Assembly: GCF_002153655.1 (NCBI RefSeq)
Contig: NZ_JOPJ01000020.1
Location: 1 to 64,000 of the forward strand
Direction: 5' to 3'
Source: Acetobacter okinawensis
GTDB taxonomy: Bacteria > Pseudomonadota > Alphaproteobacteria > Acetobacterales > Acetobacteraceae
DNA: 64,000 nucleotides
The notes beneath the pieces are model-generated. The model did not search any database. It was not told the origin of the DNA and was given only the letters and a program-made list of their open reading frames with translations. Positions 17,509 to 43,830 of this stretch are shown here, piece after piece (the stretch's first letter is position 1; each line of letters begins with the position of its first letter). The position numbers and the translations under genes are program-made.

Positions 17509-17520
17509 ATGTATGTACAA
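17509..17520. promoter_or_regulatory. HutC-like operator before the 2OG oxygenase
   Basis: Reads ATGTATGTACAA, matching the Pseudomonas HutC operator core TTGTATGTACAA at 11 of 12 bases. It lies 17-28 bases upstream of the preferred oxygenase start and about 450 bases before the TonB-receptor start. Similar sites occur at 25094, 28972 and 34929. Confidence 0.5.
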
Positions 17521-17968
17521 CTTGATTTTGCCACTATCAGGATAAAATAATCTCAAGTTCTTGTATAGAAGATAATATTTTATAAAATATGATGGTGGAA
17601 TCAGGCGTATCGGAGACAGGTTTGGGCTGCTTACTGATTCAAGAGAAAATAACATACCTATACAATATTTTATTTTTCGGAATTTCTGAACGAATCCCAC
17701 TTTCTGAGGCGCTTTGGTTCTTGGTGAGAATGACTTTTCCGCATGTAAGAGCGTGTGTGGTGGCGTGATGTTGTGCAATTTTATGGGTTTAAGTAACTGT
17801 AAATAAATAAAATTATTTTAGGTGCGCGCTGATTTTTGGCGTGAGGTGAAAATTTTTTAATTCTAAATCGTAATGTTTTTTCGGTCTGGATGAAAAATAT
17901 GGTTGCATAGACAAGTTAAACAATGTCATTGCTTGTTTGAAACAAAAATACCATCCAGGGCAGGTGCC
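17521..17968. other. AT-rich intergenic region upstream of TonB receptor and hutU
   Basis: About 450 bases of low GC with no convincing gene; small frames here lack recognisable content. A degenerate HutC-like half-palindrome, CTTGTATAGAAG, lies near 17559-17570. The region must carry the promoters of the divergent oxygenase and TonB-receptor genes. Its composition differs from its neighbours and may mark acquired DNA. Confidence 0.45.
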
Positions 17969-20457: not shown

Positions 20458-22155
20458 ATGCAAAATGAGTCCTTTTCTTCCGAGCAGGTTGTGGCAAACG
20501 GTCGCGTGATCCGGGCCGCCCATGGGACGGAAAAAACTGCCAAATCATGGCAGACAGAAGCCGCATTGCGCATGCTCATGAACAACCTGGACCCCGAAGT
20601 GGCCGAAAAACCGGACGAACTGGTGGTCTATGGCGGTATTGGCAAGGCAGCCCGCAACTGGGCCTGCTACGACCGCATTGTAGAATGTATTCGTGGGCTG
20701 GGGGATGAGGAAACACTGGTCGTGCAGTCCGGCAAGCCGGTTGGGGTGTTCCGCACCCATGCCAATGCGCCGCGTGTGCTGATTGCAAACTCCAATCTGG
20801 TGCCCCACTGGGCCAACTGGGACAAGTTTAACGAACTCGATCGGCGTGGCCTGATGATGTATGGCCAGATGACGGCTGGCTCATGGATTTACATCGGTTC
20901 GCAGGGCATTGTGCAGGGGACGTATGAAACCTTTGTCGAGATGGCCCGCCAGTATTACAACGGCAGCCTGAAAGGGCGCTGGATTCTGACAGGTGGCCTT
21001 GGCGGCATGAGCGGCGCGCAGCCTCTGGCGGCGGTTATGGCCGGTGCTTCCATGCTGGCGGTTGAGTGCGAACCCTCACGTATTCGCAAACGTCTGGAAA
21101 CCGGCTACCTTGACCGGCAGGTTGATACGCTGGATGAGGCGCTGAGCATTATCCATGATGCCTGCGCAAAAGGCGAGGCTGTTTCTGTTGGTCTGCTGGG
21201 CAATGCGGCAGAGGTTTTCCCCGAACTGGTGCGCCGTGGTATCCGCCCCGATGCCGTAACGGACCAGACATCCGCCCATGACCCGCTGAATGGCTACCTG
21301 CCTGCTGGGTGGACGCTGGAACAGGCCGCCAAAATGCGGGAGACAAACCCCGCAGCAGTGGAAAAAGCTGCCCGTGCCTCCATGCGTGAGCATGTTGCGG
21401 CCATGGTTGCGTTCCACCGCATGGGTATTCCCACCTTTGATTATGGCAACAACATCCGTCAGATGGCGTTTGAAGACGGTCTGGAAGATGCCTTTGCCTT
21501 CCCCGGTTTTGTGCCGGCCTATATCCGCCCGCTTTTCTGCCGGGGGATTGGTCCGTTCCGCTGGGCTGCTTTGTCCGGCGACCCGGAAGATATTTACAAG
21601 ACCGACCAGAAGGTCAAGGAACTCCTGCCCGACGACAAGCATCTGCACAACTGGCTGGATATGGCGCGTGAGAAAATCCAGTTCCAGGGTCTGCCCTCGC
21701 GCATCTGCTGGGTTGGGTTAGGGGATCGGCACCGTCTGGGACTGGCCTTTAACGAAATGGTTGCCAAGGGTGAACTCAAAGCCCCCATCGTCATCGGTCG
21801 TGACCATCTGGACAGTGGTTCGGTCGCCAGCCCCAACCGCGAAACAGAATCCATGCAGGATGGTTCGGATGCTGTGTCTGACTGGCCGCTGCTCAATGCG
21901 CTGCTCAACACGGCCTCTGGCGCCACGTGGGTTTCCCTCCATCATGGTGGCGGGGTTGGCATGGGTTTCTCGCAGCATTCGGGCATGGTCATTGTTGCGG
22001 ATGGCACACAGGATGCTGCTGCCCGGCTTGAGCGTGTGCTGTGGAATGACCCGGCAACCGGTGTGATGCGTCATGCGGATGCAGGGTACGACATTGCAGT
22101 CAACTGCGCGGTGGAAAAAGGCCTTGATCTGCCTATGATTACCCGCAAAAGCTGA
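20458..22155 (+). CDS. hutU: urocanate hydratase
   Basis: A 565-residue urocanase that converts urocanate to 4-imidazolone-5-propionate using tightly bound NAD+. The sequence closely follows the Pseudomonas enzyme throughout: [45 protein letters not shown], the NAD site [11 protein letters not shown], the active-site Cys in [13 protein letters not shown], and [19 protein letters not shown]. That closeness argues for a true urocanase rather than a thiourocanate hydratase. It lies in a row with the TonB receptor upstream and an MFS carrier downstream. Confidence 0.96.
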
Positions 22156-22270: not shown

Positions 22271-23482
22271 ATGGCCAGATCAGAACAAGCGCACTCTGCT
22301 CAGGATCGTTCCGTTCTGGTTCTGGCCATGGGTGCGAGTATCTGCTCGGGCTGCGCGCATCTGGGGTCATCCATCATGCCATTCCAGATTGATGCGTTAA
22401 TGACCGGTTTGCATCAGTCGGCCAGTCTGGCTGGTGTTTTCGGTTTTTTTGAAATTTTCTCCTTCGCGTTGTTCATGCTCCTGCTCTCTCGCGTGTTTCT
22501 TGCGCTGCCGGTCATGTATTCTGCTTTGTCTGGTATGGCTCTGGGCGTGGTTGCCTGCCTTTTGCTGTATATTGGACCGGGGGTGGAGGTTTGGATCTGT
22601 AGTGTGGCCATTCTGCTTGGCCTTTCTGCGGCTTTACTGTGCCGCTCCTACGTGCGGGCCGTCTCCTCGTCTTTGAACCCCGAGCGGATATACGCCATTG
22701 CCAGCGGGGGCGGGCTGGTCATTATTGTGTCTGTTATTGCTCTTGTGCCTGTGAGCACACGGTATTTTGGCCCGTTAGGTGTTTTTCTGGCTGTGGCCTG
22801 CATCATGCTGCTTGCCATGCCATCTGTTATCAGCTTCCGCCATGTGCATGCAGGCAGGCCGCTTACCCGGCAGCAGAAGGGTGGACCGCTGCTAACGGGC
22901 GGTGCCATTGCCCTGCTGTGTGTGTGGGTGGGCTGTTCCCTAGGCTCCAGCATGGCATGGTCTTTTGCTGAGCGTATAGGCCGCAACCTTGGCCTTACTC
23001 CAGACTTTATTGTCTCCCTCTCGACCGTTGGCATTGTTACCAGTGTTCTTGCCAGTCTGGTTGGGGCGGCTCTGGCCCATCGCTGGCGCAGGGAGACGGT
23101 TTTGCTGTTGACCCTGCTGGGAACCGGGGCAGGGTGCCTGCTGACCTGCGTAGCGTGGGATGCCCTGAGCTATGGTGCTGGTGTGGTTCTGTACTGGAAT
23201 TGCGCCATGTTGTCTTACGCATGGTTGCTGGGGAGTGCGGCAACGCTGGATGGCAGTGGCCGTGTTGGCACGTTTTGTGGTGGCATGGACCGCATGGGCT
23301 ATGCGCTGGGCGCGCCACTTGGCGGGCTTTTGGTTGACCATACCTCTTTTACCATACTCGGGATTTGTGGATTCCTGATGTGTGTTGCCCCGTTACCTTT
23401 TGCATTGCCGGTTCTTTTTAGGGCATTGCACAAATCCACTGTGGCCCCCACAGAGCATGAAGCGCATCTGGAAATGGTATAA
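22271..23482 (+). CDS. MFS transporter in the hut region
   Basis: A 403-residue protein with about 12 hydrophobic segments, from residue 14 (VLVLAMGASICSG) to about 385. The layout fits the major facilitator superfamily: a first half with GLSAALLCRSYVRAV, a central polar loop (HVHAGRPLTRQQKGG), and a second half with SLGSSMAWSFAERIG. It follows hutU by 115 bases on the same strand and likely moves the pathway substrate, or a by-product, across the inner membrane. Common hut transporters (hutT, hutXWV) are different families, so the substrate is open. Confidence 0.75.
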   Translation: MARSEQAHSAQDRSVLVLAMGASICSGCAHLGSSIMPFQIDALMTGLHQSASLAGVFGFFEIFSFALFMLLLSRVFLALPVMYSALSGMALGVVACLLLYIGPGVEVWICSVAILLGLSAALLCRSYVRAVSSSLNPERIYAIASGGGLVIIVSVIALVPVSTRYFGPLGVFLAVACIMLLAMPSVISFRHVHAGRPLTRQQKGGPLLTGGAIALLCVWVGCSLGSSMAWSFAERIGRNLGLTPDFIVSLSTVGIVTSVLASLVGAALAHRWRRETVLLLTLLGTGAGCLLTCVAWDALSYGAGVVLYWNCAMLSYAWLLGSAATLDGSGRVGTFCGGMDRMGYALGAPLGGLLVDHTSFTILGICGFLMCVAPLPFALPVLFRALHKSTVAPTEHEAHLEMV

Positions 23483-25093: not shown

Positions 25094-25105
25094 TTGTATG
25101 TACAA
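25094..25105. promoter_or_regulatory. HutC-like operator upstream of the histidase-like gene
   Basis: Reads TTGTATGTACAA with AG following, matching the Pseudomonas HutC operator core exactly. It lies 24 bases upstream of the ATG at 25070, in the gap after hutC, and would control the histidase-like gene from its own promoter. Confidence 0.7.
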
Positions 25106-25161: not shown

Positions 25162-25887
25162 TCAGGGTTTGTAATGCCCACCAAAGCTGTAACGGTTGCC
25201 GGGGTAGGTAAAAATCCCTTTCATCACGACATGATTGTCCACCCATGTGCGCCGGACAAGTTGCAGGCAGGCATCATGCTGGCCAATCTGCAAATCCTTG
25301 GACATGCTGGGGGAGGGGGAGACAGCAAACACCACGTGTTCAATTTCCTCCGGGCCCGCAATGCCAAACAGGTAGCGGTGGGGAATGGTCGTGGTAAAAT
25401 CCTGCTCCAGATAATCCGGCGCAAAGGAGGGCAGAACAAAGCGTTCTTCTAGCTGGAGTGGGGTGTCGTCTTCGTAATGCACAATCAGGGAGCGAAAAAG
25501 CCGCGCCCCCGGCCGCAGGTCAAAGGCAATGGCCAGATCACTGTTGGCCCGGATCATTTCCAGCGCCAGAACCTGAGCGCGGTAGTTGTTGCCGCTGGCA
25601 ACAATGTCATCAACAATATCGCGGATTTCCAGCAGTTCTACCCGTTTGGCGGGTTTGGCCACAAAGGTGCCAACCCCTTGTGCGCGTGTCACAATACCGT
25701 CTGCCGTCAACTCACGCAGGGCGCGGTGCACCGTCATGCGTGAAATGCCAAGTTGTTCAACAAGTTCGTTCTCGGAAGGAAGGCGGTAGCCAACATTCCA
25801 TTCCCCCTTGTTAATACGGTCGGTAATAAAGGTTTTGACCTGTACATAACGAGAGGCAGAACGGTTTTTTTTCAGAGTCTGTGACAC
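25162..25887 (-). CDS. hutC: histidine utilisation repressor, GntR family
   Basis: The frame is open upstream to 26412 without content. A GTG at 25887, preceded by GGAA, gives 241 residues starting (M)SQTLKKNRSASRYVQ, the usual HutC length. Residues 12-75 form the GntR winged helix (RLPSENELVEQLGISRMTVHRALREL), and the remainder is a UTRA ligand domain. In Pseudomonas, HutC represses hut genes and is released by urocanate. Four HutC-like palindromes occur within this 18-kb region. It is divergent from hutD, with a half-site (ATTGTATAAG) near 26052. Confidence 0.9.
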   Translation of the reverse strand: MSQTLKKNRSASRYVQVKTFITDRINKGEWNVGYRLPSENELVEQLGISRMTVHRALRELTADGIVTRAQGVGTFVAKPAKRVELLEIRDIVDDIVASGNNYRAQVLALEMIRANSDLAIAFDLRPGARLFRSLIVHYEDDTPLQLEERFVLPSFAPDYLEQDFTTTIPHRYLFGIAGPEEIEHVVFAVSPSPSMSKDLQIGQHDACLQLVRRTWVDNHVVMKGIFTYPGNRYSFGGHYKP

Positions 25888-26064
25888 GGTTGTTCCATGA
25901 AATCGTTGCCTGATTGCGCACACCTTAGCATTGGTGGCGCAAAAAGCGAGCATAGGAAAACTGTGGGAGTGGGGGATGTTGTATTGACCGCCTGTTATAC
26001 GCCCCAGCCATATTGACATTGCCAGCCCGGAAAAACCAATAAAGACAGTTTGATTGTATAAGGT

Positions 26065-26640
26065 ATGGCGCGCATGTCTCAGACTGTTTTTTTTGAGGAG
26101 TGTCACTGGGAGCCTTGGAAAAACGGGCAGGGGCTGACCCGTGTGCTGGGGGGAGATGCCACATGGCGGCTCAGTCTGGCAGAAATCCGGACGTCCTCCA
26201 GCTTCTCCATTTTTGAGGGGCTGACGCGCGAAATTGGTCTGATGTGTGGCCATGGCCTTTCTCTTCAGCCACAGGATCAGGCGCTTGCCCCCATGGTGCT
26301 GGATAGGGCCGGTGTGTGTTTTGCTTTTTCTGGCAATCTTGCGCTGACTGGCATGCTGCATGATGGCCCGGTGCAGGTGCTGAACCTGATGTACGGTGCC
26401 GGGCAGCGCCATCTATTGCGTCCGATAACACAGGCATGCAGGGTGGACGGTCTGCTCGCCCTTGTGCCTGTGCGGGGGGGCTGGCGTATTGGTGCCATGC
26501 CGCCGGAGGAGGAGGTGCGCGTTGCAGCGGGAACCTCCTTTTTACGCTCTTCCACCCCGCAGACGCTGGATTTGGTGCCGGACGAGGGGGAGGCCCCGTT
26601 GGCCTATGGCGTGTTCGCTGTAACGGATGGGGCAGGTTGA
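26065..26640 (+). CDS. hutD: HutD family protein
   Basis: A 191-residue cupin-fold protein of the HutD/Ves family, with WKNGQGLTRVL and RLSLAEIRTSSSFSIFEG near the N-terminus and VQVLNLMYGAG in the middle. In Pseudomonas hutD is part of hut loci and is proposed to limit the upper level of hut expression, possibly by binding formylglutamate. The ATG at 26065 has AAGG only one base away; the ATG at 26074 has better spacing and would give 188 residues. It is divergent from hutC and convergent with hutG. Confidence 0.88.
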   Translation: MARMSQTVFFEECHWEPWKNGQGLTRVLGGDATWRLSLAEIRTSSSFSIFEGLTREIGLMCGHGLSLQPQDQALAPMVLDRAGVCFAFSGNLALTGMLHDGPVQVLNLMYGAGQRHLLRPITQACRVDGLLALVPVRGGWRIGAMPPEEEVRVAAGTSFLRSSTPQTLDLVPDEGEAPLAYGVFAVTDGAG

Positions 26641-26706: not shown

Positions 26707-27507
26707 TTACCTGTCAGGCCGGTAGGCAATGGCAAGTTTGAGCAGGCCTTCTATCAACTGGCCAAGCTGGGCTGCGGCGGGCAGGCTTATGGGCCATGGC
26801 GCATCCTCGCTGGCAAGGTAGGCGGACTGGGCCAGTTCAAGCTGCACGGCATGGATGCCGTTCTGTGGCTGCCCGTAATGGCGGGTTGTATATCCACCCT
26901 TGAAGCGACCATTGAGCACATGCGTGTCGCTGCTGTGTTGCGCTGCGTGCTGCACAAGCTGCTCCGCCAGAGTGGCTGCACAGCTTGCGCCGCTGTTTGT
27001 GCCAAAGTTAAGGGTGGGGAGTGTGCCTTCAAACAGGTGGGGAATGTGCGAGCGGATGGAATGGGCATCCCACAGGATGGCCCAGCCCCATTTGGCCCGT
27101 AGTCGCTCCAGTTCCGCTGTTATGGCGTTGTGGTAGGGGTGCCAGTACGAGCTGATACGCTCCTGTATTTCGGCCTCGTCCGGCTCCTGCCCGGCCAGAT
27201 ACAGGGGCGCACCATCAAAGGCATGTGTGGGTACAACACCCGTGCTGGGGCGGCCGGGATAGAGCACGGCATTGTCTGCCCCCCTGTTCAGGTCCGTGAC
27301 ATAGCGTGAATAGCGTGCCCGCAGGGTGCTGGCACCCAGTGCGTGCGCGCAGGCGTAAAGGTGGTCCACGTACCAGTCCGTGTCCGGCAGTGTGCGGGCA
27401 TGGGGTGTCAGGCGCGCCTCCATGCCGGGAGGGAGCAGGGTGCCGGAGTGGGGGATAGTGACCAGAAGAGGCAACTGACCGGGAGAATACGTAAAAATAT
27501 CGCTCAT
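26707..27507 (-). CDS. hutG: N-formylglutamate deformylase
   Basis: A 266-residue FGase. It hydrolyses N-formyl-L-glutamate to glutamate and formate, the last step of the five-enzyme hut route. Conserved parts are LVTIPHSGTLLPP with a metal-binding His, DTDWYVDHLY, RYSRYVTDLNRGADNA and the metal motif WDAHSIRSHIP. It lies 20 bases downstream of hutF on the same strand and is probably co-transcribed with it. Confidence 0.93.
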   Translation of the reverse strand: MSDIFTYSPGQLPLLVTIPHSGTLLPPGMEARLTPHARTLPDTDWYVDHLYACAHALGASTLRARYSRYVTDLNRGADNAVLYPGRPSTGVVPTHAFDGAPLYLAGQEPDEAEIQERISSYWHPYHNAITAELERLRAKWGWAILWDAHSIRSHIPHLFEGTLPTLNFGTNSGASCAATLAEQLVQHAAQHSSDTHVLNGRFKGGYTTRHYGQPQNGIHAVQLELAQSAYLASEDAPWPISLPAAAQLGQLIEGLLKLAIAYRPDR

Positions 27508-27527: not shown

Positions 27528-28898
27528 TTAATTGGACAGGAGCGGACGCACCGCCTGACGGAACGCCTGACGCAGGGCGGCGGCGTTGTGGTGTTGTCTG
27601 TCACGCACGCGCCATTGCCCGGCACTCATCACATGCAGCACGGGCGGCGCTGTCTGCGAGAAAATGGCAGCGTCCAGCACATCATCCCCCATCAGGTCGG
27701 GGAGGAGAAACGCCTCTGTATCCAGCACGCACAGGTCTGCGCGGGCTCCGGCTTGCAGGCCCCACTCAGGCAGGCCACAGGCCTGTGCGCCGCCTTTCAG
27801 GCTCTCGCGGTAGAGCCAGCCGCCGGTAGAGCCAAGATGCCCCGATGGCAGGCCGACGCAGCGCTTCTGGTGGTGCAGGCGCTGGCTGTATTCCAAAATC
27901 CGCAATTCCTCCCATGGGCTGAGAAGAATATTGCTGTCGCTCCCCAACCCGAAGCGGCCGTTGTGGCTGACGTAGTCTGCCAGAGGGAAAATACCATCAC
28001 CCAGATTGGCTTCCGTAATCGGGCAGAGGCCCGCTATGGCCCCACTTTTTGCCAGAGCCTGTGCTTCGGCCTCAGTCAGGTGGGTGGCATGCACAAGGCA
28101 CCAGCGTGCATCGACCGGGGTGTGGGTAAGCAGATGCTCTACCGGGCGCTGGCCGGTTGCCGCTATGCAGTCCCGCACTTCCTGCATCTGTTCGGCAATA
28201 TGGATGTGGACGGGCGTATGCGGGCCCGCAATGCGCAGCATGTCGGCGACCGTATCGAGTGCTACAGCGCGGAGTGAATGCAGGCCAACACCCACCCTGA
28301 CCAGTTTGGAATCCTGTGTGGCTGTCTGTGTGGCGGTTACAATATCAGCTATGAGTTCTGGCGTGCTGGCAAAGCGTTTTTGGGCGTCTTGTAGTGGTTT
28401 TTTGCCAAAGCCCGCATAGGTGTAAAGTGTGGGCAGCAGGGTCAGGCCCATGCCTGCTTCTTCCGCCGCATTGGCCAGACAGAGGGAGAGTGTGGCCTTC
28501 TGGGCATAGGCCGCACCGTCATGCGCGTTGTGCAGGTAATGGAATTCAGCAACCTGCGTGTACCCTGCACACAGCATTTCTGCGTACAGGTAAGCGGAGA
28601 TGGCGTGCATCTGCTCGGGCGTTATGCGGTGCGCGAGCTGATACATGAGCTTGCGCCATGTCCAGAATGTATCATCCGGGTTGGCGCGTTTTTCCCCCAG
28701 ACCGGACATGGCGCGCTGGAAGGCGTGCGAGTGCAGGTTGGGCATGGGCGGCACAACACAGGCCACCTGCTCCACGCCCGCGGGGGCTGCGCTGTCGGGC
28801 GTAACCTTTGCAAAGGTGCCGTCCTTGGCAAGAGTTATTGTAACATTCTGGTGCCATCCATCGGGGAGGAGGGCCTGTCGTGCAAAAAGATCGGACAT
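27528..28898 (-). CDS. hutF: formimidoylglutamate deiminase
   Basis: About 456 residues from the ATG at 28898; a TTG at 28922 is less likely. It converts N-formimino-L-glutamate to N-formylglutamate and ammonia, which defines the five-step branch of histidine breakdown. It is an amidohydrolase-fold metalloenzyme: [13 protein letters not shown] holds the HxH zinc ligands, HIHIAEQ and LVHATHLT the next His residues, and [16 protein letters not shown] the catalytic Asp. It is divergent from hutI with a HutC-like operator between, and leads into hutG. Confidence 0.94.
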
Positions 28899-28971: not shown

Positions 28972-28983
28972 TTGTATATACAT
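28972..28983. promoter_or_regulatory. HutC-like operator between hutF and hutI
   Basis: Reads TTGTATATACAT, 11 of 12 bases of the symmetric TTGTATATACAA form. It sits in the 123-base gap between the divergent hutF and hutI starts and could repress both. Confidence 0.65.
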
Positions 28984-29021: not shown

Positions 29022-30290
29022 ATGACGTGGGATACTTTGTGGCTGGACGTCCATCTGGCGACCTCCGACCCGGAGCGGATATCCGGGGAGGATGGCTTTG
29101 GCTGCATACGCAATGGCGCTCTGGCTGTGCAGGATGGCAAGATTGCATGGGTCGGGGCTATGGAGGATCTGCCTGCCCCCGCCCATACGCTTGCGCGTGA
29201 ACTGCGCCACGGGCAGGGACTGTGGATGACGCCCGGTCTGGTGGATGCGCATACGCATGTTGTTTTTGGTGGTGACCGGAGTGCCGAGTTCTCCCTCCGC
29301 CTTCATGGCGTGTCGTATGAGGAGATTGCGCGCCAGGGGGGAGGGATTCTCTCCACAGTCCGGGCCACGCGTGATGCCACGGAGGAGGAGTTGCTACACA
29401 AGGCCATCCCCCGTGTGCAGGAGATGATTGCGTCGGGCACAACGGCCATAGAGGTCAAATCCGGTTACGGCCTGCGCACAAGTGATGAGTTGAAGCAACT
29501 GCGGGTTGCGCGGGAGCTGGCGCGCCGCTTGCCTGTACATGTGCACACCACGTTTTTGGGTGCGCACGCTCTGCCAGAAGAATACGTTGGCCGCGCTGAC
29601 GAGTACATCCGCCACCTGAGTGAAGAGATGCTGCCATGCCTGATGGCAGAAAATCTGGTGGATAGTCTGGATGTTTTTTGTGAAAACATAGCCTTTTCCA
29701 CAGAGCAGGCTGAAAAACTGTTCAGCAGGGCGCAGGAGCTCAAGCTGCCCGTGCGCATTCATGCTGACCAGTTGTCGGCCAGTGGTGGTGGGTTGCTGGC
29801 TGCACGTTATGGTGCGCTGTCTGCTGACCATCTGGAATATGTGAACGAGGACGCCGTAAGCTGTATGGCGCAGGCCGGCACGGTTGCCATGCTGCTGCCC
29901 GGCGCATTCTACTTTATCCGGGAGAGCAAGGTACCTCCTATCAATCTGTTCCGCCATTATGGTGTACCCATGGGGCTGGCAACGGACTGCAACCCCGGAA
30001 CTTCCCCCATATTAAGCCTGCCCGGTGTAATGAACATGGCCTGCACATTGTTCAGAATGACACCGGAGGAAACATTCAGGGCTGTCACAACCGTAGGTGC
30101 GCGTGCACTGGGGCTGGAGCAAAATCTGGGTATGCTCAAACCCGGCTGTCAGGCGGATATGGCCTTGTGGGACATGGCTGGCCCCCATGAACTGTCTTAC
30201 TGGATCGGGGGCAGAAAACCGCGTGGGGTCATTTTTGGTGGCCGTGTGGTGGTGGACCCGCAGAACTGCGCGCTATCCCCCGCCGTATAG
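29022..30290 (+). CDS. hutI: imidazolonepropionase
   Basis: 422 residues from the ATG at 29022, with AGGAA 8 to 12 bases upstream; the frame runs far upstream but antisense to hutF. It opens the imidazolone ring of 4-imidazolone-5-propionate to give formiminoglutamate. Amidohydrolase motifs are intact: [14 protein letters not shown] (HxH), [25 protein letters not shown] and [11 protein letters not shown] with the catalytic Asp. It is slightly longer than the usual 400-410 residues. A GGGGGCAG/CTGCCCCC hairpin follows at 30308-30328. Confidence 0.95.
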
Positions 30291-30404: not shown

Positions 30405-31178
30405 TTAACGCCCGTGAAAAATAGGTCTGGTTTTGCTTGCAAGGGCGCTCAGGCCCGCCTGCCGGTCCTCGCTCGCGGCGACCAGTGCGGAGAGTGTGCG
30501 CTCATATTTGATACCCGCAGTAAGCGGCATGTCATAGCTGGCCAGCAGGGCAGCTTTGGCCATGTGTGTAGCCAGCGGGCCAGCCTGAGCAATGCGTTCG
30601 GCTACTGCCATGGCGGTGGATACGGCCTCGCCTGCTTGTGTTATCTGGCTGACCAGCCCTTGTGTGCAGGCTTCTGTTGCCGTGAGCCTGCGCCCGGCCA
30701 GAACCATTTCCATGGCAAGGGACTTGCCAAGTGTGCGGGTCAGCCTTTGTGTGGCCCCTGCACCGGGGATAATGCCCAGTGTGGTTTCAGGCAGCCCAAA
30801 AACAGCGTCTGGGGCTGCAATAATAATATCGCACGCCATCAGCAGTTCCAGCCCGCCGCCCAGCGCATAGCCCTGCACTGCGGCTATGATCGGGGTCTGG
30901 CAGGCGGCAATCTGGTCCCAGTGTTCGCTAAATCCGCTGGTGTACAGGGCTATGGCGCCACTCTGGGCAAGTGTGCCAACGTCTGCCCCGGCGGCAAAGG
31001 CGCGAGCCTGCCCGCAGATGACAATGGCCCGCACATCTGTGGCCGCATCGTATTCCCGTATGGTTGCGACAAGTTCGGCCAGCATAGGCAGGCTGAGCGC
31101 ATTCAGCTTTTGGGGGCGGTTGAGGGTAATCTGCCCGATACAGCCCTGTTTTTGCTTGAGGATGAGTGGTTCAGTCAT
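30405..31178 (-). CDS. enoyl-CoA hydratase/isomerase family protein
   Basis: 257 residues from the ATG at 31178 (MTEPLILKQKQGCIG); the frame extends to 31301, but that lies inside the upstream dehydrogenase. Crotonase fold with the oxyanion-hole motifs FAAGADV and QGYALGGGLELLMACDI. Both catalytic Glu are present, one in GGGLEL and one in LPETTLGIIPGAG, so syn-hydration of an enoyl-CoA is expected. It is the last gene of a four-gene operon and overlaps the dehydrogenase by 8 bases. The likely role is hydration of the enoyl-CoA formed after the lyase and CoA-transferase. Confidence 0.88.
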   Translation of the reverse strand: MTEPLILKQKQGCIGQITLNRPQKLNALSLPMLAELVATIREYDAATDVRAIVICGQARAFAAGADVGTLAQSGAIALYTSGFSEHWDQIAACQTPIIAAVQGYALGGGLELLMACDIIIAAPDAVFGLPETTLGIIPGAGATQRLTRTLGKSLAMEMVLAGRRLTATEACTQGLVSQITQAGEAVSTAMAVAERIAQAGPLATHMAKAALLASYDMPLTAGIKYERTLSALVAASEDRQAGLSALASKTRPIFHGR

Positions 31179-32085
31179 GGCTGGCGACCTTGCGTGCATG
31201 GGTGACCATCTGGTCTCGTCTGCTGCGGGCGGATGCAGCGCTTTCTTCCGTCCATGGGTAAAAACCCCGTCCGGTTTTGGTGCCGAGTGCGCCTTCAGCA
31301 ACCCGTTGCGTTACCAGAGCAGGAATATCCGTGGCGTTGCTCAGGGCGGGCATAAGAATGGCGGAGACATTTTTCACCGTATCCAGCCCGGCCATGTCCA
31401 TCAGGCGTAATGGACCACATGCGGACCAGCGCGGCGCCAGTGTGCTCTCAACCGCCAGGTCCACATCGGCCATGCTGGCGACCCCCTGTTCGACCAGAAA
31501 AAGGGCCTCGCGCAGCATGGCGTATTGCAGGCGGTTGACCACAAAGCCCGGACAGTCCTGACGCACGATAATGGAGGCTTTACCCGCAGCTTTGGCCAGT
31601 GCCTGTGCCTGAGCCACAACGTCATCCGCTGTTGCCTCCCCCAGCACAATTTCCACCAGCGGCATGACCTGAGGGGGGTTGAACCAGTGTATGCCAATCA
31701 ACCTTTGTGGGCAGCGCAGGGCTGTTGCCAGTTGGGTAATGGGCACGCTGGAGGTGTTGGTGCTTAACAGGCAGGCTGGAGGAACCTGTTGTTCAACCTC
31801 CCGCAGAACGGTTTTTTTCAGCTCGGGGTTTTCAGCCAGATTTTCACTGACCACATCGGCATTTTCCAGACAGGCCTGCAAGGATGTGGTGTAAAGAACA
31901 TGGGCAGCAGCATTGCCAGCACCGGCCTCTACAATGGTTCTGGCGGTATCCAGCGTGGTCTGGCTGCGCGAGTACAGGGCAACCTGCCACCCGAGTGCGG
32001 CAAAGACGCTGGCAATGCCTGCGCCCATGGTCCCCGCACCGACAACGGCAATTTTACTTTGGGTCATGTGTGCGGTGTCCGTCAT
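31171..32085 (-). CDS. 3-hydroxyacyl-CoA dehydrogenase
   Basis: 304 residues, the length of a stand-alone HBD/HAD enzyme. Residues 10-40 form the Rossmann motif KIAVVGAGTMGAGIA. The catalytic set is complete: Ser in NTSSVPI, His in GIHWFNPPQVMPLVEIV, and Asn in CPGFVVNRLQYA. It oxidises a 3-hydroxyacyl-CoA with NAD+. The related carnitine dehydrogenases share this fold, so a non-CoA 3-hydroxy substrate is possible. It starts 18 bases after the CoA-transferase stop. Confidence 0.88.
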   Translation of the reverse strand: MTDTAHMTQSKIAVVGAGTMGAGIASVFAALGWQVALYSRSQTTLDTARTIVEAGAGNAAAHVLYTTSLQACLENADVVSENLAENPELKKTVLREVEQQVPPACLLSTNTSSVPITQLATALRCPQRLIGIHWFNPPQVMPLVEIVLGEATADDVVAQAQALAKAAGKASIIVRQDCPGFVVNRLQYAMLREALFLVEQGVASMADVDLAVESTLAPRWSACGPLRLMDMAGLDTVKNVSAILMPALSNATDIPALVTQRVAEGALGTKTGRGFYPWTEESAASARSRRDQMVTHARKVASHD

Positions 32086-32103
32086 TGTCTGTTCTGCCCG
32101 GGC

Positions 32104-33315
32104 TTAAAGCACATGGTCTGCGCGGAGTTGTGCGATCTGCGCGTCCGACAGTTCCAGATCATCGTGCAAGATCGTATCGGTGTGTGCACCCAGAACCGGG
32201 GCTGCACGCTCCGGCGCGGGGTTGAGCCCATTAAATCGTACAGGCTGGGGAATAATCTGTATGGGACCGGCAACGGGGTGCTCAACCTGCTTTACAATGC
32301 CGCGCTCATGCACATGCGGGCTTTGCAGTGCCTCAGCAAGGGTGTTGACCGGGGCTGCGGGCACACCTGCTGTGACCAGCATGGTCATGGCCTCCTGCGT
32401 GGTCAGGGTGCTGGACCATGCGCTCAGGATGGTTTTCAGGGCGTCCTGATTCTGGTGGCGCTGTGGGTCGGAACTAAAACGGGAGTCCTGATCCAGGTCG
32501 GGCTGGCCTATGGCTTTTGCAAGGCGTGTAAACAGGCTGTCGTTGGCTACGGCAATAACAATCTCCCCATCCGTGGTCGGGAATGTGTCCATCGGAGCGC
32601 TTATGGCATGGGCATTACCCAGCAGGCCGGGTGGGGGAGCACCCCCCATAAGCTGTGCGAGTGAGACAACCTGAAGCGAAATAACAGCATCCAGCATGGC
32701 CACATCAATATGGGTACCATTGCCGCTGATCTGGCGTTGGAGAATGCCTGCCAGTGCGCCCCATGCGCCATACAGGCCGGACACCACATCGGCAATAGGG
32801 TCACCCACCCTTGTTGGCCCGGTGGACGGCCAGCCGGTGCTGCTCATAATCCCGCCTATGGCCTGAATGACGTGGTCATAGGCCGCGCGCTGGGCAAGGG
32901 GGCCTTCCTGCCCAAAGCCTGAAATACTGACATAGACAAGGCGGGGGTTAATGGCGTGGAGGCTGGCATAATCAATGCCCAGACGGGCTGTTACGCCGGG
33001 CCTGAAGTTTTCGACCAGAACATCGGCCTGTTTGACTAGTTTGAGAAAAATGGCCATGCCATCTTCTTTTTTTAGGTCAAGGGTGATGCTTTTTTTACCT
33101 CTGTTGAGGAGCATGAAGTAGGTGCTCTCTCCGTTAAGGTAAGGCCCGAACGCGCGGGAATCATCCCCTCCGTCTGGCCGTTCGATCTTGGTGACATCCG
33201 CCCCAAGGTCTGCAAGCATGGCTGCGCACAAAGGCCCTGCCAGAACCCGGGATAAATCCAGAACCTTAACACCCTGCAATGGCAGGCATGGTGATGATGC
33301 AGCGGTCACGGTCAT
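32104..33315 (-). CDS. class III CoA-transferase (CaiB/BaiF)
   Basis: A 403-residue protein with the family start VKVLDLSRVLAGPLCAAMLADLGADV and the later ENFRPGVTARLGIDY. The catalytic Asp is D176 in DPIADVVSGLYGA. Such enzymes move CoA between carboxylates through an aspartyl-CoA thioester. It overlaps the end of the second lyase-like gene by ATGA, so the two are translationally coupled; a simple reading is activation of the enoate made by that lyase. Acceptor and donor are unknown. Confidence 0.9.
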   Translation of the reverse strand: MTVTAASSPCLPLQGVKVLDLSRVLAGPLCAAMLADLGADVTKIERPDGGDDSRAFGPYLNGESTYFMLLNRGKKSITLDLKKEDGMAIFLKLVKQADVLVENFRPGVTARLGIDYASLHAINPRLVYVSISGFGQEGPLAQRAAYDHVIQAIGGIMSSTGWPSTGPTRVGDPIADVVSGLYGAWGALAGILQRQISGNGTHIDVAMLDAVISLQVVSLAQLMGGAPPPGLLGNAHAISAPMDTFPTTDGEIVIAVANDSLFTRLAKAIGQPDLDQDSRFSSDPQRHQNQDALKTILSAWSSTLTTQEAMTMLVTAGVPAAPVNTLAEALQSPHVHERGIVKQVEHPVAGPIQIIPQPVRFNGLNPAPERAAPVLGAHTDTILHDDLELSDAQIAQLRADHVL

Positions 33316-34886
33316 TCTCCTGAGGGTGAGGGGGCCAGAGCGTCCCGCACGCAGGCGCTGAGGACACCCGTGTCCATGAGTGTGCGGATAGCGCCTAGCT
33401 CGGGGTGGAGTGCAGTGTCCGCGTGGCGGGGGGGAACATGGGCGCGAATGGCCTCATACGCTGCCTGCACGGCCCTGCCAGCACGCAGGGGCTGGTGGTA
33501 CTCCAGTGCCTGTGCGGCGCACAGGAACTCTATACAAATAACATCCAGCGCGTTGTCTGCCGCGGTATGGGCTTTTTGGGCCGCATACACCCCCATGCTG
33601 GTATGGTCTTCCTGCCCGGCACAGGTGGACAGGCTGTTCACGGAGGAGGGGGTGGCAAGGCACCTGTTCTCTGCCGCGGCTGCTGCGGCGGCATAAGGGG
33701 GGATCATCAGGCCGGAAAGCCCACTGCCCTTTGGGGCCAGAAAAGGCGGCAAGCCGCTTAAATACGTATTGGTCAGCCGGTCGGAGCGGGCTTGCGACAT
33801 GTTGCTGATGGAGGCAATGGCAATGGCCAGTGTGTCCAGCGCCAGAGCCGTGGGCGCACCGTGCCCGTTCCCGCCCGGTAGGGCCTCGTAGCTATTGTTG
33901 CGCCAGAAAAAAACAGGGTTGTCGGTTACTGCGTTTATTTCCGTCTCCAGCACCTGCCCGACATAGTGCATGGCGTCCCTGACTGCGCCATGCACCTGTG
34001 GAATGCAGCGCAGGCTGAGCGCATCTTGCAGGCGGTGGTTCCTGTTTGCAGCCATGATCTGGCTGTCGGCCAGAAGCTGCCTGAGAACGGCAGCCGTGTG
34101 GACCTGCCCCGGATGGGGGCGCAGGCTTTGCAGGTCAGGGTCATAGCCACGGCTGTTCCCACGCAATGCTTCCAGCGCCATACAGCCAGCCAGGTCAGCC
34201 AGTTCCACCGCATGGCGGGCCTGCTCAAAGGCCAGAGCGCCAATGGCTGTAATCTCATATGTGCCACTGATCAGGGCATGCCCTTCACGCGGGCCGGGGG
34301 TGAGGGGGGGTAACCCCGCCCGCTCCATGGCAACACGGCCGGGCAGGCGCTCGCCCCTGTAGGTGGCTTCTCCCTCCCCAAAAATAACCAGACCGATATG
34401 GGCGGTGGCAATCAGGTAGCCCACAGACCCTTTGGAGGGGGAGCAGGGAATGACCCCCCTGTTCAGCATGGCGGCCATTGTGGTTACAAGGGGTGTCCCC
34501 ACGCCACTATGGCCTTGCAGGAGTGCGCGGAGCATGGTGGCCATAATAGCGCGCACGACTGTATGGGGGTGTGGCGCGCCTATGCCGCAGGCATGGCTGC
34601 GGAGCATGCCAATCTGAGCATTGCTGATTTCTTCAGCCGAAAGCAGAACCGAGTACTGGTCACCGACCCCTGTGGTCAGGCCATAAACGGGGCGCTTCTG
34701 GGCGATGGCGTCCTGTAGGCTGGCCTGTAGCGCGTGGAGTGCCGCCAGTGCGCCCTCATCCACAACAACAGGTGCTCCATGGGCCACGGCAACGATCTCG
34801 GCAATCGTGGTTGTGTGTGTGCCAAACGTAACAGGTTGAGTGGGGGTGTGCTCTTTTTTACAGGAGGTCTCGTATTGGACGCTCAT
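33312..34886 (-). CDS. second HAL/PAL-like lyase lacking the MIO triad
   Basis: A 524-residue protein with HAL/PAL fold motifs: YGLTTGVGDQYSVLLS, SHACGIGAPH, QDALSLRCIPQVHGA, VTDNPVFFW, SDRLTN, SGLMIPPYAAAAAAAE and AGQEDHTSMG. At the MIO site residues 150-159 read PSKGSVGYLI, missing Ala-Ser-Gly exactly as in the protein at 23571-25070, although the two differ widely elsewhere. MIO cannot form, so ammonia elimination by the standard route is not expected. It heads a tight operon with CoA-transferase, 3-hydroxyacyl-CoA dehydrogenase and enoyl-CoA hydratase, and a HutC-like operator lies 43-54 bases upstream. The substrate is unknown. Confidence 0.87.
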   Translation of the reverse strand: MSVQYETSCKKEHTPTQPVTFGTHTTTIAEIVAVAHGAPVVVDEGALAALHALQASLQDAIAQKRPVYGLTTGVGDQYSVLLSAEEISNAQIGMLRSHACGIGAPHPHTVVRAIMATMLRALLQGHSGVGTPLVTTMAAMLNRGVIPCSPSKGSVGYLIATAHIGLVIFGEGEATYRGERLPGRVAMERAGLPPLTPGPREGHALISGTYEITAIGALAFEQARHAVELADLAGCMALEALRGNSRGYDPDLQSLRPHPGQVHTAAVLRQLLADSQIMAANRNHRLQDALSLRCIPQVHGAVRDAMHYVGQVLETEINAVTDNPVFFWRNNSYEALPGGNGHGAPTALALDTLAIAIASISNMSQARSDRLTNTYLSGLPPFLAPKGSGLSGLMIPPYAAAAAAAENRCLATPSSVNSLSTCAGQEDHTSMGVYAAQKAHTAADNALDVICIEFLCAAQALEYHQPLRAGRAVQAAYEAIRAHVPPRHADTALHPELGAIRTLMDTGVLSACVRDALAPSPSGE

Positions 34887-34928: not shown

Positions 34929-34940
34929 TTGTATATACAT
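34929..34940. promoter_or_regulatory. HutC-like operator upstream of the lyase/CoA operon
   Basis: Reads TTGTATATACAT, identical to the site between hutF and hutI. It lies 43-54 bases before the ATG of the second lyase-like gene, a usual place for a repressor site over a promoter. It ties this operon to HutC control. Confidence 0.65.
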
Positions 34941-40605: not shown

Positions 40606-42294
40606 TCAGGTCATAAGCAGAATAATCACCATGCCCCAGATAGTCAGCAGCGTGTTCCCTACGGCGTAAGTAACGGTGTAGCCAAGGGTGGGGACCTGAC
40701 TGCGGGCAATTTCGTTGATCATGCCCAGTGCTGCGGTTGTTGTGCGCGCCCCTGCGCAGGCGCCAAGCAGGATGGCAGGGTGGAAGCGGAACAGATATTT
40801 GCCAATAAAGATGGACAGAACAAGCGGGAGCGTTGTTGCAAACATGCCCCACAGGAATATTCCGGCCCCCAGATTTTCCAGCCCGGCAACAAAGGTTGGC
40901 CCCGATGCAATGCCCACGCCTGCAATAAAGACGTTTAGCCCCACAGAGTTCATAAACCAGACTGTTGAGGTGGGTATGTAGCCAAAGGTCGGGTGGATGG
41001 AGCGGAGCCAGCCAGTAATAAGGCCCGCGATCAGCGCACCACCAGCCGTAGACAGGGTAAGGGGTATGGACCCGATACGAATGGTGACCGCACCAACAAG
41101 GCAGCCAATGGTAATGGCGAGTGCCAGTGTCATAACATCCGTAACACTGCCGGGGCGGTCCACACGGCCCCATGCCTTGGCGGCGATGGAGGTATCTGCC
41201 GTGCGCCCACTCACCGAGAGCACGTCTCCACGCTGCACAACTGTTTTGGGCAGCAGGGGAATTTCCTCCCCGGTCAGCCCGCGTGCAATCCTGCACAGGA
41301 AAACGCCGTGTGCTTCGGGCATTTTTGCAATTTCAGCAATTGTTTTCCCGCTGATCGCACGGCTGGTGATGAAAATATCAATGCCTTCCATGGGAACCGA
41401 GAGCAGCTCGCGGTCGTCCACTTCCTTGGCATGTGTGCCAATAATATCGATCAGGATATGGCGTGACCCGGTAATGGCCAGAACATCCCCGGTCTGGACA
41501 ACCATATCCCCTTTAGCTGCCATGACCTGAGAGCCTCGGCGCACGCGTTCAATAAAAACACCGCCATGGGGAAAGAGATGTTCGATCTCCGAGACTGTCT
41601 GCCCGCTGACCTTGGTTGACTCCCCAACCTGAAAAGCGCGGAGTTCGTAAGGGTGCCAGGCCAGATCGCCACTGGCATTGTGGTCCATGCCGCCCATGCT
41701 GGCTTCGTAATCCGCACATTCCTTGGCAAGGTCCACGCGCAGCAGTTTTGGCCCGAGTAGTGCAAGGATAATGGCAGAGCCAACCGTGCCAAACAGATAG
41801 GTGACCGCATAGGCAACTGGCATTTCGTTCAGCAGGTGGCGTTTTTCTTCCACCGTAATGGCAAGCTGGTTAATGCTGTCGGTCGCAAGCCCCATGGAGG
41901 CAGAAAGTGTTTGGGACCCGGCAAAAAGACCCGCAGCCGTTCCTGCATTATACCCGGCAAGGCGCGCTGCCAGCCACACGGAGCCAAGGCAGAGCAGGCA
42001 GACCACAACGGCAAACAGGGCCTGCTTCAGCCCGTCCTTTGCCAGCCCCCGCACAAACTGCGGGCCAACGCCATAACCAACAGCAAACAGGAAGAGCAGA
42101 AAGAAAAAGGACCCCACCATGGGCGAGATCGGGATGTTGAACTGCCCGATCGCAACTGCGGCAATCAGCGTGGACGTGACTGCACCCAGCCCGAGACCAC
42201 GGTAGTTGAATTTGCCGAACCAGTACCCAAAGGCCAGGGCTATGAATACTGCAATCGGAGGGTAGGTTTTCAGTACAGTTTCAATCCATGCCAT
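40606..42294 (-). CDS. aspT: AspT-family amino acid antiporter beside gadB
   Basis: A 562-residue AAEx-family carrier. Membrane helices occupy residues 10-190 and 385-560, with two RCK/TrkA-C-like cytoplasmic domains between (GDMVVQTGDVLAITG and KTVVQRGDVLSVSG). AspT exchanges aspartate for alanine in lactobacilli and makes proton-motive force together with a decarboxylase. Here it sits 111 bases after glutamate decarboxylase, so it may exchange glutamate for GABA. The two genes are separated by a strong hairpin. The symbol reflects family, not proven substrate. Confidence 0.85.
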   Translation of the reverse strand: MAWIETVLKTYPPIAVFIALAFGYWFGKFNYRGLGLGAVTSTLIAAVAIGQFNIPISPMVGSFFFLLFLFAVGYGVGPQFVRGLAKDGLKQALFAVVVCLLCLGSVWLAARLAGYNAGTAAGLFAGSQTLSASMGLATDSINQLAITVEEKRHLLNEMPVAYAVTYLFGTVGSAIILALLGPKLLRVDLAKECADYEASMGGMDHNASGDLAWHPYELRAFQVGESTKVSGQTVSEIEHLFPHGGVFIERVRRGSQVMAAKGDMVVQTGDVLAITGSRHILIDIIGTHAKEVDDRELLSVPMEGIDIFITSRAISGKTIAEIAKMPEAHGVFLCRIARGLTGEEIPLLPKTVVQRGDVLSVSGRTADTSIAAKAWGRVDRPGSVTDVMTLALAITIGCLVGAVTIRIGSIPLTLSTAGGALIAGLITGWLRSIHPTFGYIPTSTVWFMNSVGLNVFIAGVGIASGPTFVAGLENLGAGIFLWGMFATTLPLVLSIFIGKYLFRFHPAILLGACAGARTTTAALGMINEIARSQVPTLGYTVTYAVGNTLLTIWGMVIILLMT

Positions 42295-42329
42295 GGCAGG
42301 AGAACGCTCCGGGGAAAAAAGTTTGGGAC

Positions 42330-42375
42330 AAAATGAAAAAAACTGCCACGTTCCAACAAAGAGCGTGGCAGTTTT
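42330..42375 (-). terminator. hairpin between gadB and the antiporter
   Basis: A 12-bp stem, AAAACTGCCACG/CGTGGCAGTTTT (42339-42350 and 42364-42375), with a 13-base loop. On the minus strand it runs into a T-rich tract. It is a strong intrinsic terminator after gadB, so read-through or a separate promoter is needed for the antiporter. Confidence 0.8.
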
Positions 42376-42405
42376 ATCAGGTACTAAACGTTACAAAGAC
42401 CGGTG

Positions 42406-43830
42406 TTACGGAGCCTTTGCGGGCACCGTGTCTTTTGAAAACGCATGGTGTGGTGTTTTCTGCCCTGCTGCGCCCAGTGGTGTTGCGGGCTTGTGGGCCT
42501 CAAGATAATCAATGGAGCGCTTCACATCTGCAAGGAAGAGGTCGGCCATATCACGGGTAAAGCCGTGGCGGACCAGAACACGCATGACAACAACATCGGT
42601 AATGTTGGGCAGCATCGTATAAGCCGCAGCCTGCCAGCCACGTGTGCGCAGACGGTCGGAAAGGTCAAAGAGCGACCAACCCGGGTTCCCCTCCAGCGTC
42701 CACGACACACCGGGAATGCCCTTTTTGCTGTCACCATCAAAAAACAGATGGAACGGGCCAATCTTGACAATTTCCTGCGCAATATGCCCGGCCGTGTCGT
42801 ACATATTGTCGAGCAGGCGGCGGTAGCCTTCGCGGCCAAGACGCAGGAACAGATAATACTGCGCAATGATCTGACCGCCCGGACGCGAGAAGTTCAGCGC
42901 AAATGTGGGCATGTTGCCGCCAAGATAGTTGACCCAGAAAATCAGGTCATCCGGCAGGTCGGTCTTGTCTTTCCACACAACCCAGCCCACGCCCAGCGGA
43001 GCAAGGCCATATTTGTGGCCGGACGCGTTGATCGAGCAGACGCGGGGCAGGCGGAAGTCCCACTCCATGTCCGGCTCTTTAAAGGGGGCTGTAAAGCCGC
43101 CGGAGGCCGCATCAACATGGATGGGAATATCCAGCCCGGTTTCGGCCTGCAGTTTGTCCAGTGCGGCTGCAATTTCAGCAACGGGTTCGTACTGGCAGGT
43201 AAAGGTCACGCCAAAGGTTGGCATAACGCCAATCGTGTTTTCATCAACCCGCTTCAGCACTTCCTCGGCATTCATGCTGATCCGGTCTTTTTCAAGCGGA
43301 ATTTCGCGGATTTCAACATCAAAATACCGGGCAAACTTGTGCCAGCAGACCTGTACGGGGCCAGTTACAATGTTCGGGCGGTCAGTGGGGCGCCCGGCTG
43401 CCTTGGCTTTTTCGCGCCAGCGCCACTTCAGGGCAAGGCCACCCAGCATGGCGGCTTCGCTGGAGCCAATGGTGGCACAGCCGATGGAGCGGTTCAGCTC
43501 GGGGGCGTTCCACAGATCGGCCAGAATGCTGACGCAACGACGTTCGATTTCCGCTGTGGCGGGGTACTCGTCCTTGTCGATCATATTCTTGTCGATGGCC
43601 AGATCCATCAGGCGATGAATTTCCGGCTCCATCCACGTCTGCCCGAAGGTGGCAAGGTTCTGGCGTGCGTTCCCGTCCAGGAACAGTTCGTCGCGGATGA
43701 GGGCTTCAGCCACGTCAGGGCGCATCTCGCCTTTGGGAAAGCGGAATTTGGGAACCGTGATTCCCGCAGATCGGGTCGCATACAGGTCGGCATCGACTTC
43801 ATGCGAGGCTGGCTTTTCCTGAATCGGCAT
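42406..43830 (-). CDS. gadB: glutamate decarboxylase
   Basis: A 474-residue PLP enzyme that converts glutamate to GABA and CO2, consuming a cytoplasmic proton; typical of acid-resistance systems. The PLP Lys is K273 in [10 protein letters not shown], and HVDAASGGF precedes it with the Asp that holds the pyridine nitrogen. [15 protein letters not shown] is the cofactor phosphate region. The C-terminal tail ends with [14 protein letters not shown], longer than in E. coli GadB. Over 600 bases of very AT-rich DNA lie upstream. Confidence 0.96.

Follow-up and report, generated by a model that had tools for sequence, protein, structure and literature searches.

A putative HutC-regulon operon of Acetobacter joins a histidine ammonia-lyase homologue without the MIO triplet to genes of a predicted coenzyme A route

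What would a lyase that has lost the residues of its own cofactor do at the head of a coenzyme A (CoA) operon? The question is raised by four genes on the minus strand at 30405–34886 of a 64,000-nucleotide stretch of Acetobacter DNA, hereafter the window, whose genome (G000) comprises 2.72 Mb in 147 contigs. The first gene encodes lyase A (P0001; 33312–34886), a member of the histidine ammonia-lyase (HAL) superfamily without the Ala-Ser-Gly triplet of the methylidene-imidazolone (MIO) cofactor. It is followed by a class III (CaiB/BaiF) CoA-transferase (32104–33315), a 3-hydroxyacyl-CoA dehydrogenase family protein (31171–32085) and a PaaF-like enoyl-CoA hydratase (30405–31178). The reading that we favor, at a probability of about 0.5, is that of a HutC-regulon operon in which lyase A takes trimethylamine off an imidazole betaine, most likely hercynine, and the CoA genes carry the product to a 3-oxoacyl-CoA. 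Lyase A, predicted to be a trimethylamine (betaine) lyase, would eliminate trimethylamine from hercynine (trimethylhistidine) or a related imidazole betaine independently of MIO, since a permanently charged leaving group requires no electrophilic cofactor, and would release urocanate or a compound close to it. Activation of this product to an enoyl-CoA would fall to the CoA-transferase; the hydratase would add water to give a 3-hydroxyacyl-CoA, and the dehydrogenase would oxidize the latter to a 3-oxoacyl-CoA.

The four genes are tightly packed. Those of the lyase and the CoA-transferase share a 4-base ATGA overlap, 18 bases separate the CoA-transferase from the dehydrogenase, and the dehydrogenase and hydratase genes overlap by 8 bases; the coordinates, strand and junctions given in the first-pass annotation of this DNA, a model's reading of the letters, were all recovered. 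Judging from the overlaps, the four genes are probably co-transcribed. Between the operon end and the convergent hutI lies a GC-rich inverted sequence, read from the letters rather than found by a terminator scan. Each of the four genes shows purifying selection in a comparison with a second genome of the genus (G295), where the ratio of nonsynonymous to synonymous substitution rates (dN/dS) is 0.060 for lyase A, 0.089 for the CoA-transferase, 0.128 for the dehydrogenase and 0.079 for the hydratase, similar to the 0.078, 0.084 and 0.095 of hutI, hutF and hutG. The catalytic residues are present at the kinds of site that the annotation had named, namely Asp176 of the CoA-transferase within GDPIADVVSG, STNTSS from 108, His133 and Asn184 of the dehydrogenase together with its GxGxxG motif, and, in the hydratase, Glu111 and Glu131. 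The genes for CoA activation, hydration and oxidation in the proposed beta-oxidation-like set are thus intact.

The lyase itself departs from histidine ammonia-lyases at the very site of the cofactor. The NCBIfam models that fit it best are those of histidine ammonia-lyases, yet it scores below their curated cut-offs: 502 bits against 524 for the NF006871 subfamily and 486 against 539 for the hutH equivalog TIGR01225. We aligned 29 rows with MAFFT, among them 11 of lyase A's own clade (clade A), 9 of the clade of a second MIO-less lyase in the window (clade B, with lyase B) and 7 canonical HutH proteins. The canonical rows all read GSVGASGDL with Ala-Ser-Gly present, whereas in every clade A row GSVGY runs into a 3-residue gap at the MIO site, and every clade B row has the identical gap after GSVGY (GSAGY in one). 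The MIO triplet is deleted in 20 of the 20 lyase A and B rows; PSKGSVGYLI at residues 150–159, where the first-pass annotation had noted the lack of Ala-Ser-Gly, marks a 3-residue deletion relative to HutH. The missing triplet and the sub-cut-off score rule out an ordinary HutH identity for lyase A. In a tree of 28 rows, clades A and B are each recovered at 100/100 and stand together apart from HutH at 96/91.

The pocket is partly retained. In the residue numbering of Pseudomonas putida HAL (Phe329 and Tyr280 appear also in PDB titles), both clades keep Tyr53, His83, Arg283, Gln412 and Glu414. Tyr280 is replaced by Leu in both, Phe329 by Gly in clade A and by Ala or Pro in clade B, and Asn195 by Ser in clade A (Gly in two Klebsiella rows), with Asn unchanged in clade B. 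His83 and Glu414, presumably the imidazole-binding pair of HAL, correspond to His98 and Glu426 of P0001. This pair and the HutC-type operator that precedes the operon make an imidazole side chain most likely, which narrows the "imidazole or aryl acrylate" of the first-pass annotation to the former. An AlphaFold2 monomer model of lyase A (mean predicted local distance difference test, pLDDT, 85.8) superposes on P. putida HAL with template modeling (TM) scores of 0.88–0.92 and on ergothionase with 0.85–0.90. As the active site of the HAL family lies at the tetramer interface, the monomer is of little use for judging the pocket.

The same gene order recurs in relatives. A search of 72,556 plasmid records at E 1e-125 found lyase A in 177: 160 from Klebsiella, many of them near-identical, 12 from Rhizobium, 2 from Escherichia, and one each from Agrobacterium, Neorhizobium and Sodalis. 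Of the 15 records that come from neither Klebsiella nor Escherichia we opened 10, and of the 160 from Klebsiella 3. All ten of the former group (Rhizobium, Neorhizobium, Agrobacterium, Sodalis) carry an ATPase, two permeases, a binding protein, the lyase, the CoA-transferase, the dehydrogenase and the hydratase, always in that sequence. The four-gene order that the annotation had proposed to seek elsewhere therefore exists there, the lyase being first of the four every time, and in each case an OpuABC-type ATP-binding cassette (ABC) transporter stands before the lyase operon. At the three Klebsiella loci (L045, L061, L062), hutU, hutI, hutF, hutC and hutD accompany this transporter and lyase, and CoA genes were absent from the 17.5 kb read at each. 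Their lyase is 56% identical to lyase A and differs at 1 of 12 pocket positions (Ser to Gly), their hutU is canonical (1020 bits), and inside clade A they group with the CoA-type lyase of Sodalis (95/93). Similarly, an Aureimonas locus has the same type of transporter with lyase B and a full hut set, lyase B filling the hutH slot. The binding proteins of the CoA-type, Klebsiella hut-type and Aureimonas loci are 58–82% identical to each other and, of the pocket positions that we compared, differ only at 339 and 419. Since one imported compound can lead to hut or to CoA genes across these modules, the lyase product is expected to be urocanate or something very like it. Among solved structures the binding protein best matches Lmo1422 and the ergothioneine-binding EgtUC, with 28–29% identity to EgtUC for the CoA-type rhizobial proteins. 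The amine transporter beside the operon in relatives and the ergothionase kind of MIO-less lyase support the betaine-type substrate of the first-pass annotation; the compound itself we infer.

In a phylum sample 155 of 398 genomes gave a match at E 1e-60, and the 29 best-scoring loci besides the window's (L012–L040) comprise 14 with GSVGY, 12 with ASG and 3 with no site printed; in at least 5 of the 14 GSVGY loci the MIO-less gene lies beside a canonical HutH, within the approximately 4.5 kb examined. In a family sample of 299 genomes, three, among them G179, carry the lyase at an identity of at least 58%. Another family sample gave none in 297 genomes at E 1e-120, which says nothing on rhizobia, a class sample of 385 gave only the window's own genome, and a named-genome scan with a single lyase sequence matched only Acetobacter okinawensis. 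At the G179 locus (L048:3212-12883) an acyl-CoA dehydrogenase immediately precedes lyase A, and a CoA-transferase, an MmgE/PrpD protein and a canonical urocanase lie on the other strand. This locus is perhaps an entry for imidazole propionate, where the acyl-CoA dehydrogenase would fit a saturated acid joining the same enoyl-CoA.

How might such an operon be controlled? The HutC operator consensus is TGTA-N2-TACA according to PMC12977541. One such site, TTGTATATACAT at 34929–34940 (core 34930–34939), lies upstream of the lyase A operon, and an identical TTGTATATACAT occupies 28972–28983 between the divergent hutF and hutI. The site TTGTATGTACAA at 25094–25105 lies 2 bases before the presumed GTG start of lyase B, and TGTATGTACA at 17510–17519 precedes the genes for a TonB receptor, hutU and a major facilitator superfamily (MFS) transporter. 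The pattern TGTANNTACA occurs 4 times in the window against 0.33 expected (standard deviation 0.60), a count reached in none of 100 shuffles. The stricter TTGTATRTACAW, picked after three sites had been seen, occurs 3 times in the whole genome, always in this region, and its reversed pattern does not occur. All four promoters carry a site in G295 as well (the TonB-hutU counterpart at L088:3333), as do three of the four in the A. okinawensis stretch examined. In the nine rhizobial loci the palindrome CCTRTATATACARG always precedes the transporter-lyase operon, once exact to the consensus and eight times one base off; the Sodalis locus has no match. All three GntR proteins tested from two rhizobial loci exceed the HutC cut-off (251, 247 and 233 against 220 bits), and BLAST found a HutC-like regulator in the examined stretch of 8 of the 10 CoA-type plasmid loci. 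On this sequence evidence the four-gene operon apparently belongs to the HutC regulon.

A hut cluster lies beside the operon. The first-pass annotation was right about the four genes and overlooked both this cluster and the second MIO-less lyase. On the plus strand, a TonB-dependent receptor (17903–20410; PF00593, 119 bits) is followed by the urocanate hydratase HutU (20458–22155; 966 bits, cut-off 375) and the MFS transporter (22271–23482; PF07690, 37 bits). Lyase B (P0005; 23571–25091, minus), which reads GSVGYLV in the alignment and whose start is uncertain (GTG taken), comes next, and then the HutC repressor (25162–25908, minus; TIGR02018, 268 bits, cut-off 220), a HutD family protein (26065–26640, plus; PF05962, 82 bits), the N-formylglutamate amidohydrolase HutG (26707–27507, minus; PF05013, 251 bits), the formimidoylglutamate deiminase HutF (27528–28895, minus; 624 bits, cut-off 525) and the imidazolonepropionase HutI (29022–30290, plus; 445 bits, cut-off 298, ATG start chosen). 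Against the thiourocanate hydratase models NF058530 and NF058531, HutU reaches 708 and 722 bits where the cut-offs are 930 and 880; being canonical and below both, it rules out a thiourocanate route at this locus.

The only lyase within the cluster is the MIO-less lyase B. HAL-superfamily proteins number three in G000 at E 0.001 (lyases A and B and a third on contig C73, whose site reads LSEGD). A search at E 1e-10 likewise gave A and B in G295, along with a third protein with the site GNLLLTNADFA; in an A. okinawensis draft it gave B, a lyase A broken into three pieces, and a third protein with LSEGD. No canonical HutH is among the proteins found in these three genomes at these thresholds. 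A hut cluster that includes a canonical HutH does occur in G272, a further genome of the genus. The third protein of G000 (L003:1474-3015) lies between TonB receptor and ornithine-cyclodeaminase family genes. Its site, LSEGDLAP, resembles that of ergothionase, but Arg replaces His83, which makes it a doubtful candidate for the ergothionase of this genome. The very divergent GNLLLTNADFA protein of G295 (L047:11195-12613; 25% identical) is encoded beside lyase A and is followed by two frames that match the window's MFS protein. Frame breaks split lyase A and the CoA-transferase in the A. okinawensis draft (L004:10001-12780), where the nearby hutG is short too, so sequencing error is likely behind them. 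G179 carries a HAL-like protein (L091:2209-3993) with the variant MIO site GSIGAGDLG, without Ser between Ala and Gly. In other genomes, hut loci with relatives of lyase B also hold a ProXWV-type transporter (L052, L063, L065); some of these relatives lie beside a canonical HutH, and several are annotated as hutH. Farther along the window, at 40606–43830, an Asp-Al_Ex family (AspT-like) transporter adjoins a pyridoxal-dependent decarboxylase, perhaps as an acid-tolerance pair.

Several observations weigh against the hercynine reading. If the product is urocanate, the CoA branch looks redundant, because HutU at the same locus already handles urocanate. The retention of His83 and Glu414 could reflect ancestry alone. 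A HutC-type site by itself is no proof of control, because HutC-like sites are widespread in P. aeruginosa, for which PMC12977541 gives 172 predicted sites, with low-affinity binding at the six tested. The binding protein of the relatives was not found in G000 or G295, and its pocket agrees only in part with that of EgtUC. When compared with the EgtUC positions, whose aromatic cage for quaternary amines is described in PMC9732360, the binding proteins retain Glu375 and Arg379 but have Asp for Tyr341 (7 of 7), Gln for Tyr443 (7 of 7) and Thr or Leu for Tyr419 (5 of 7). Five of the seven proteins lack three of the four cage residues, and the remaining two, L054 and L087, with Phe or Tyr at 419, lack two; Asp also stands at 339 in six of the seven. 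Because the cage is not conserved, a standard betaine-binding mode and a quaternary amine are disfavored, and the pocket of the binding protein does not serve as proof that the amine is quaternary.

The end of the route raises similar doubts. The CoA-transferase matched 7 NCBIfam models and reached the cut-off of none, so that its family leaves the substrate undefined; its solved matches include succinate-hydroxymethylglutarate CoA-transferase. The best solved match of the dehydrogenase is a pyridine-aldehyde dehydrogenase, and no acyl-CoA enzyme. The first-pass annotation expected the last step to lie elsewhere. In G000, however, the thiolase domain PF00108 gave three partial matches of 24.1, 23.4 and 19.8 bits, all below the cut-off of 26.4 that 13 of 14 control genomes exceed. 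PF02803, over its cut-off in 11 of the 14, was found twice in G179 and not in G000, G295 or G272. BKACE, with two matches in G179, was absent from G000 and G295 in a search that passed the cut-off in only 1 of the 14 controls. With no thiolase over cut-off and no BKACE in G000, this genome shows no known means of cleaving the 3-oxoacyl-CoA and, judged by thiolase, no complete beta-oxidation cycle. In Acetobacter the route may end in some other cleavage, or CoA may be handed back and the 3-oxo acid decarboxylate, or the operon may have a non-carbon role. In rhizobia, a thiolase elsewhere in the genome could cleave the 3-oxoacyl-CoA. The fullest version of the hercynine reading, in which hercynine import, MIO-free removal of trimethylamine and beta-oxidation of urocanoyl-CoA, all controlled by HutC, would give urocanate a second, CoA-dependent fate beside the urocanase route, is offered only tentatively.

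Alternatively, lyase A may act on another imidazole betaine, be it ergothioneine, S-methyl-ergothioneine or a ring-methylated hercynine. HutU would be unable to hydrate the resulting enoate, which the CoA branch would take on, while lyase B and the hut enzymes handle hercynine. Such a division would account for two MIO-less lyases and two downstream routes side by side; it would also agree with the Ser that lyase A, like ergothionase, has for Asn195, where lyase B keeps Asn, and with Lmo1422 and EgtUC as the closest solved structures to the relatives' binding protein. We nevertheless consider it unlikely, as the Klebsiella lyase, with 11 of 12 pocket positions the same, sits with a canonical hutU in opened stretches that contain no CoA genes, and the window's HutU scores below the thiourocanate hydratase cut-offs. 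The odds are slimmer still for a non-imidazole aryl betaine, that of tryptophan, tyrosine or phenylalanine, with the operon as an aryl-acrylate beta-oxidation route. A class III CoA-transferase, a hydratase and a dehydrogenase do suit cinnamate-like acids, many of the host records are legume-sourced, and legumes contain betaines. However, lyase A keeps both His83 and Glu414, neither of which is found in the phenylalanine aminomutase AdmH (aligned through a third lyase), and HutC-type sites, HutC regulators and the hut genes beside the sister lyases all point to imidazole.

The leaving group may likewise be questioned. A non-quaternary amine (primary, secondary or acylated) could be removed from a histidine derivative by an undescribed MIO-free mechanism. 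The replacement of the aromatic cage by Asp341, Asp339 and Arg379 recalls ordinary amino-acid binders, and lyase B takes the place of hutH in Aureimonas. Against this, the pocket changes match those of ergothionase, lyase B would be redundant in the GSVGY loci where it adjoins a canonical HutH, and HAL requires MIO for the elimination of ammonia; we regard this mechanism as quite improbable. Loss of MIO destroys normal HAL activity, and lyase A is in three pieces in the A. okinawensis draft, so one might suppose an inactive or purely regulatory pseudoenzyme whose neighboring CoA genes serve another substrate. A dN/dS of 0.06, a pocket conserved over Acetobacter, rhizobia, Sodalis and Klebsiella, and the leading position of the lyase in all ten opened loci make this highly implausible.

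Should the trimethylamine lyase assignment be correct, many proteins recorded as histidine ammonia-lyases (14 of the 29 best-scoring loci with GSVGY, and 177 plasmid records) would be trimethylamine lyases, and an inlet for betaines would be widespread among hut loci. Lyase A would also allow one to probe how an enzyme of the HAL fold functions without its cofactor. Both fungi and bacteria make hercynine and ergothioneine. Our literature search, with most subscription papers outside its coverage, turned up no published description of the operon, no enzyme or pathway that degrades hercynine, no paper joining hercynine with a lyase, urocanate and trimethylamine, and nothing on a CoA ester of urocanate. 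What appears to be new here is that an ergothionase-like lyase goes together with a putative CoA route and an operator of the HutC type.

Among known systems, HutH (TIGR01225; P. putida 1b8f) shares with lyase A the fold, the imidazole-binding pair and a HutC-type operator, and differs by its Ala-Ser-Gly and by the Tyr280 and Phe329 that lyase A has exchanged for Leu and Gly, as well as in the bit score given above. The EgtU/OpuABC quaternary-amine transporters resemble the relatives' importer in the binding-protein matches, but not in the aromatic cage, and this binding protein was not found in the window's genome. The gamma-butyrobetaine (bbu) pathway catabolizes a betaine through CoA thioesters with release of trimethylamine, and the carnitine (cai) pathway also proceeds through CoA thioesters. 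In bbu, according to PMC8364193, the amine leaves a CoA ester through an acyl-CoA-dehydrogenase-like enzyme, whereas the HAL-type lyase of the window would act before CoA activation. Ergothionase (Treponema denticola 6s7j/6s7q; Burkholderia sp. HME13) is described in PMC13405746 as a trimethylamine lyase lacking MIO, and has the HAL fold. Aligned with 12 of the lyase rows, 6s7j keeps His83, Glu414, Arg283 and Tyr53 and has Ser for Asn195 and Leu for Tyr280, as lyase A does. The two are only 27% identical; ergothionase has lost fewer residues at its site, SSIGEGD, than the three missing from the GSVGY of lyase A, keeps the Phe329 that is Gly in lyase A, and has Ile for the Gln412 retained in clade A. 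Where ergothionase is associated with a thiourocanate hydratase, the window locus carries CoA genes instead.

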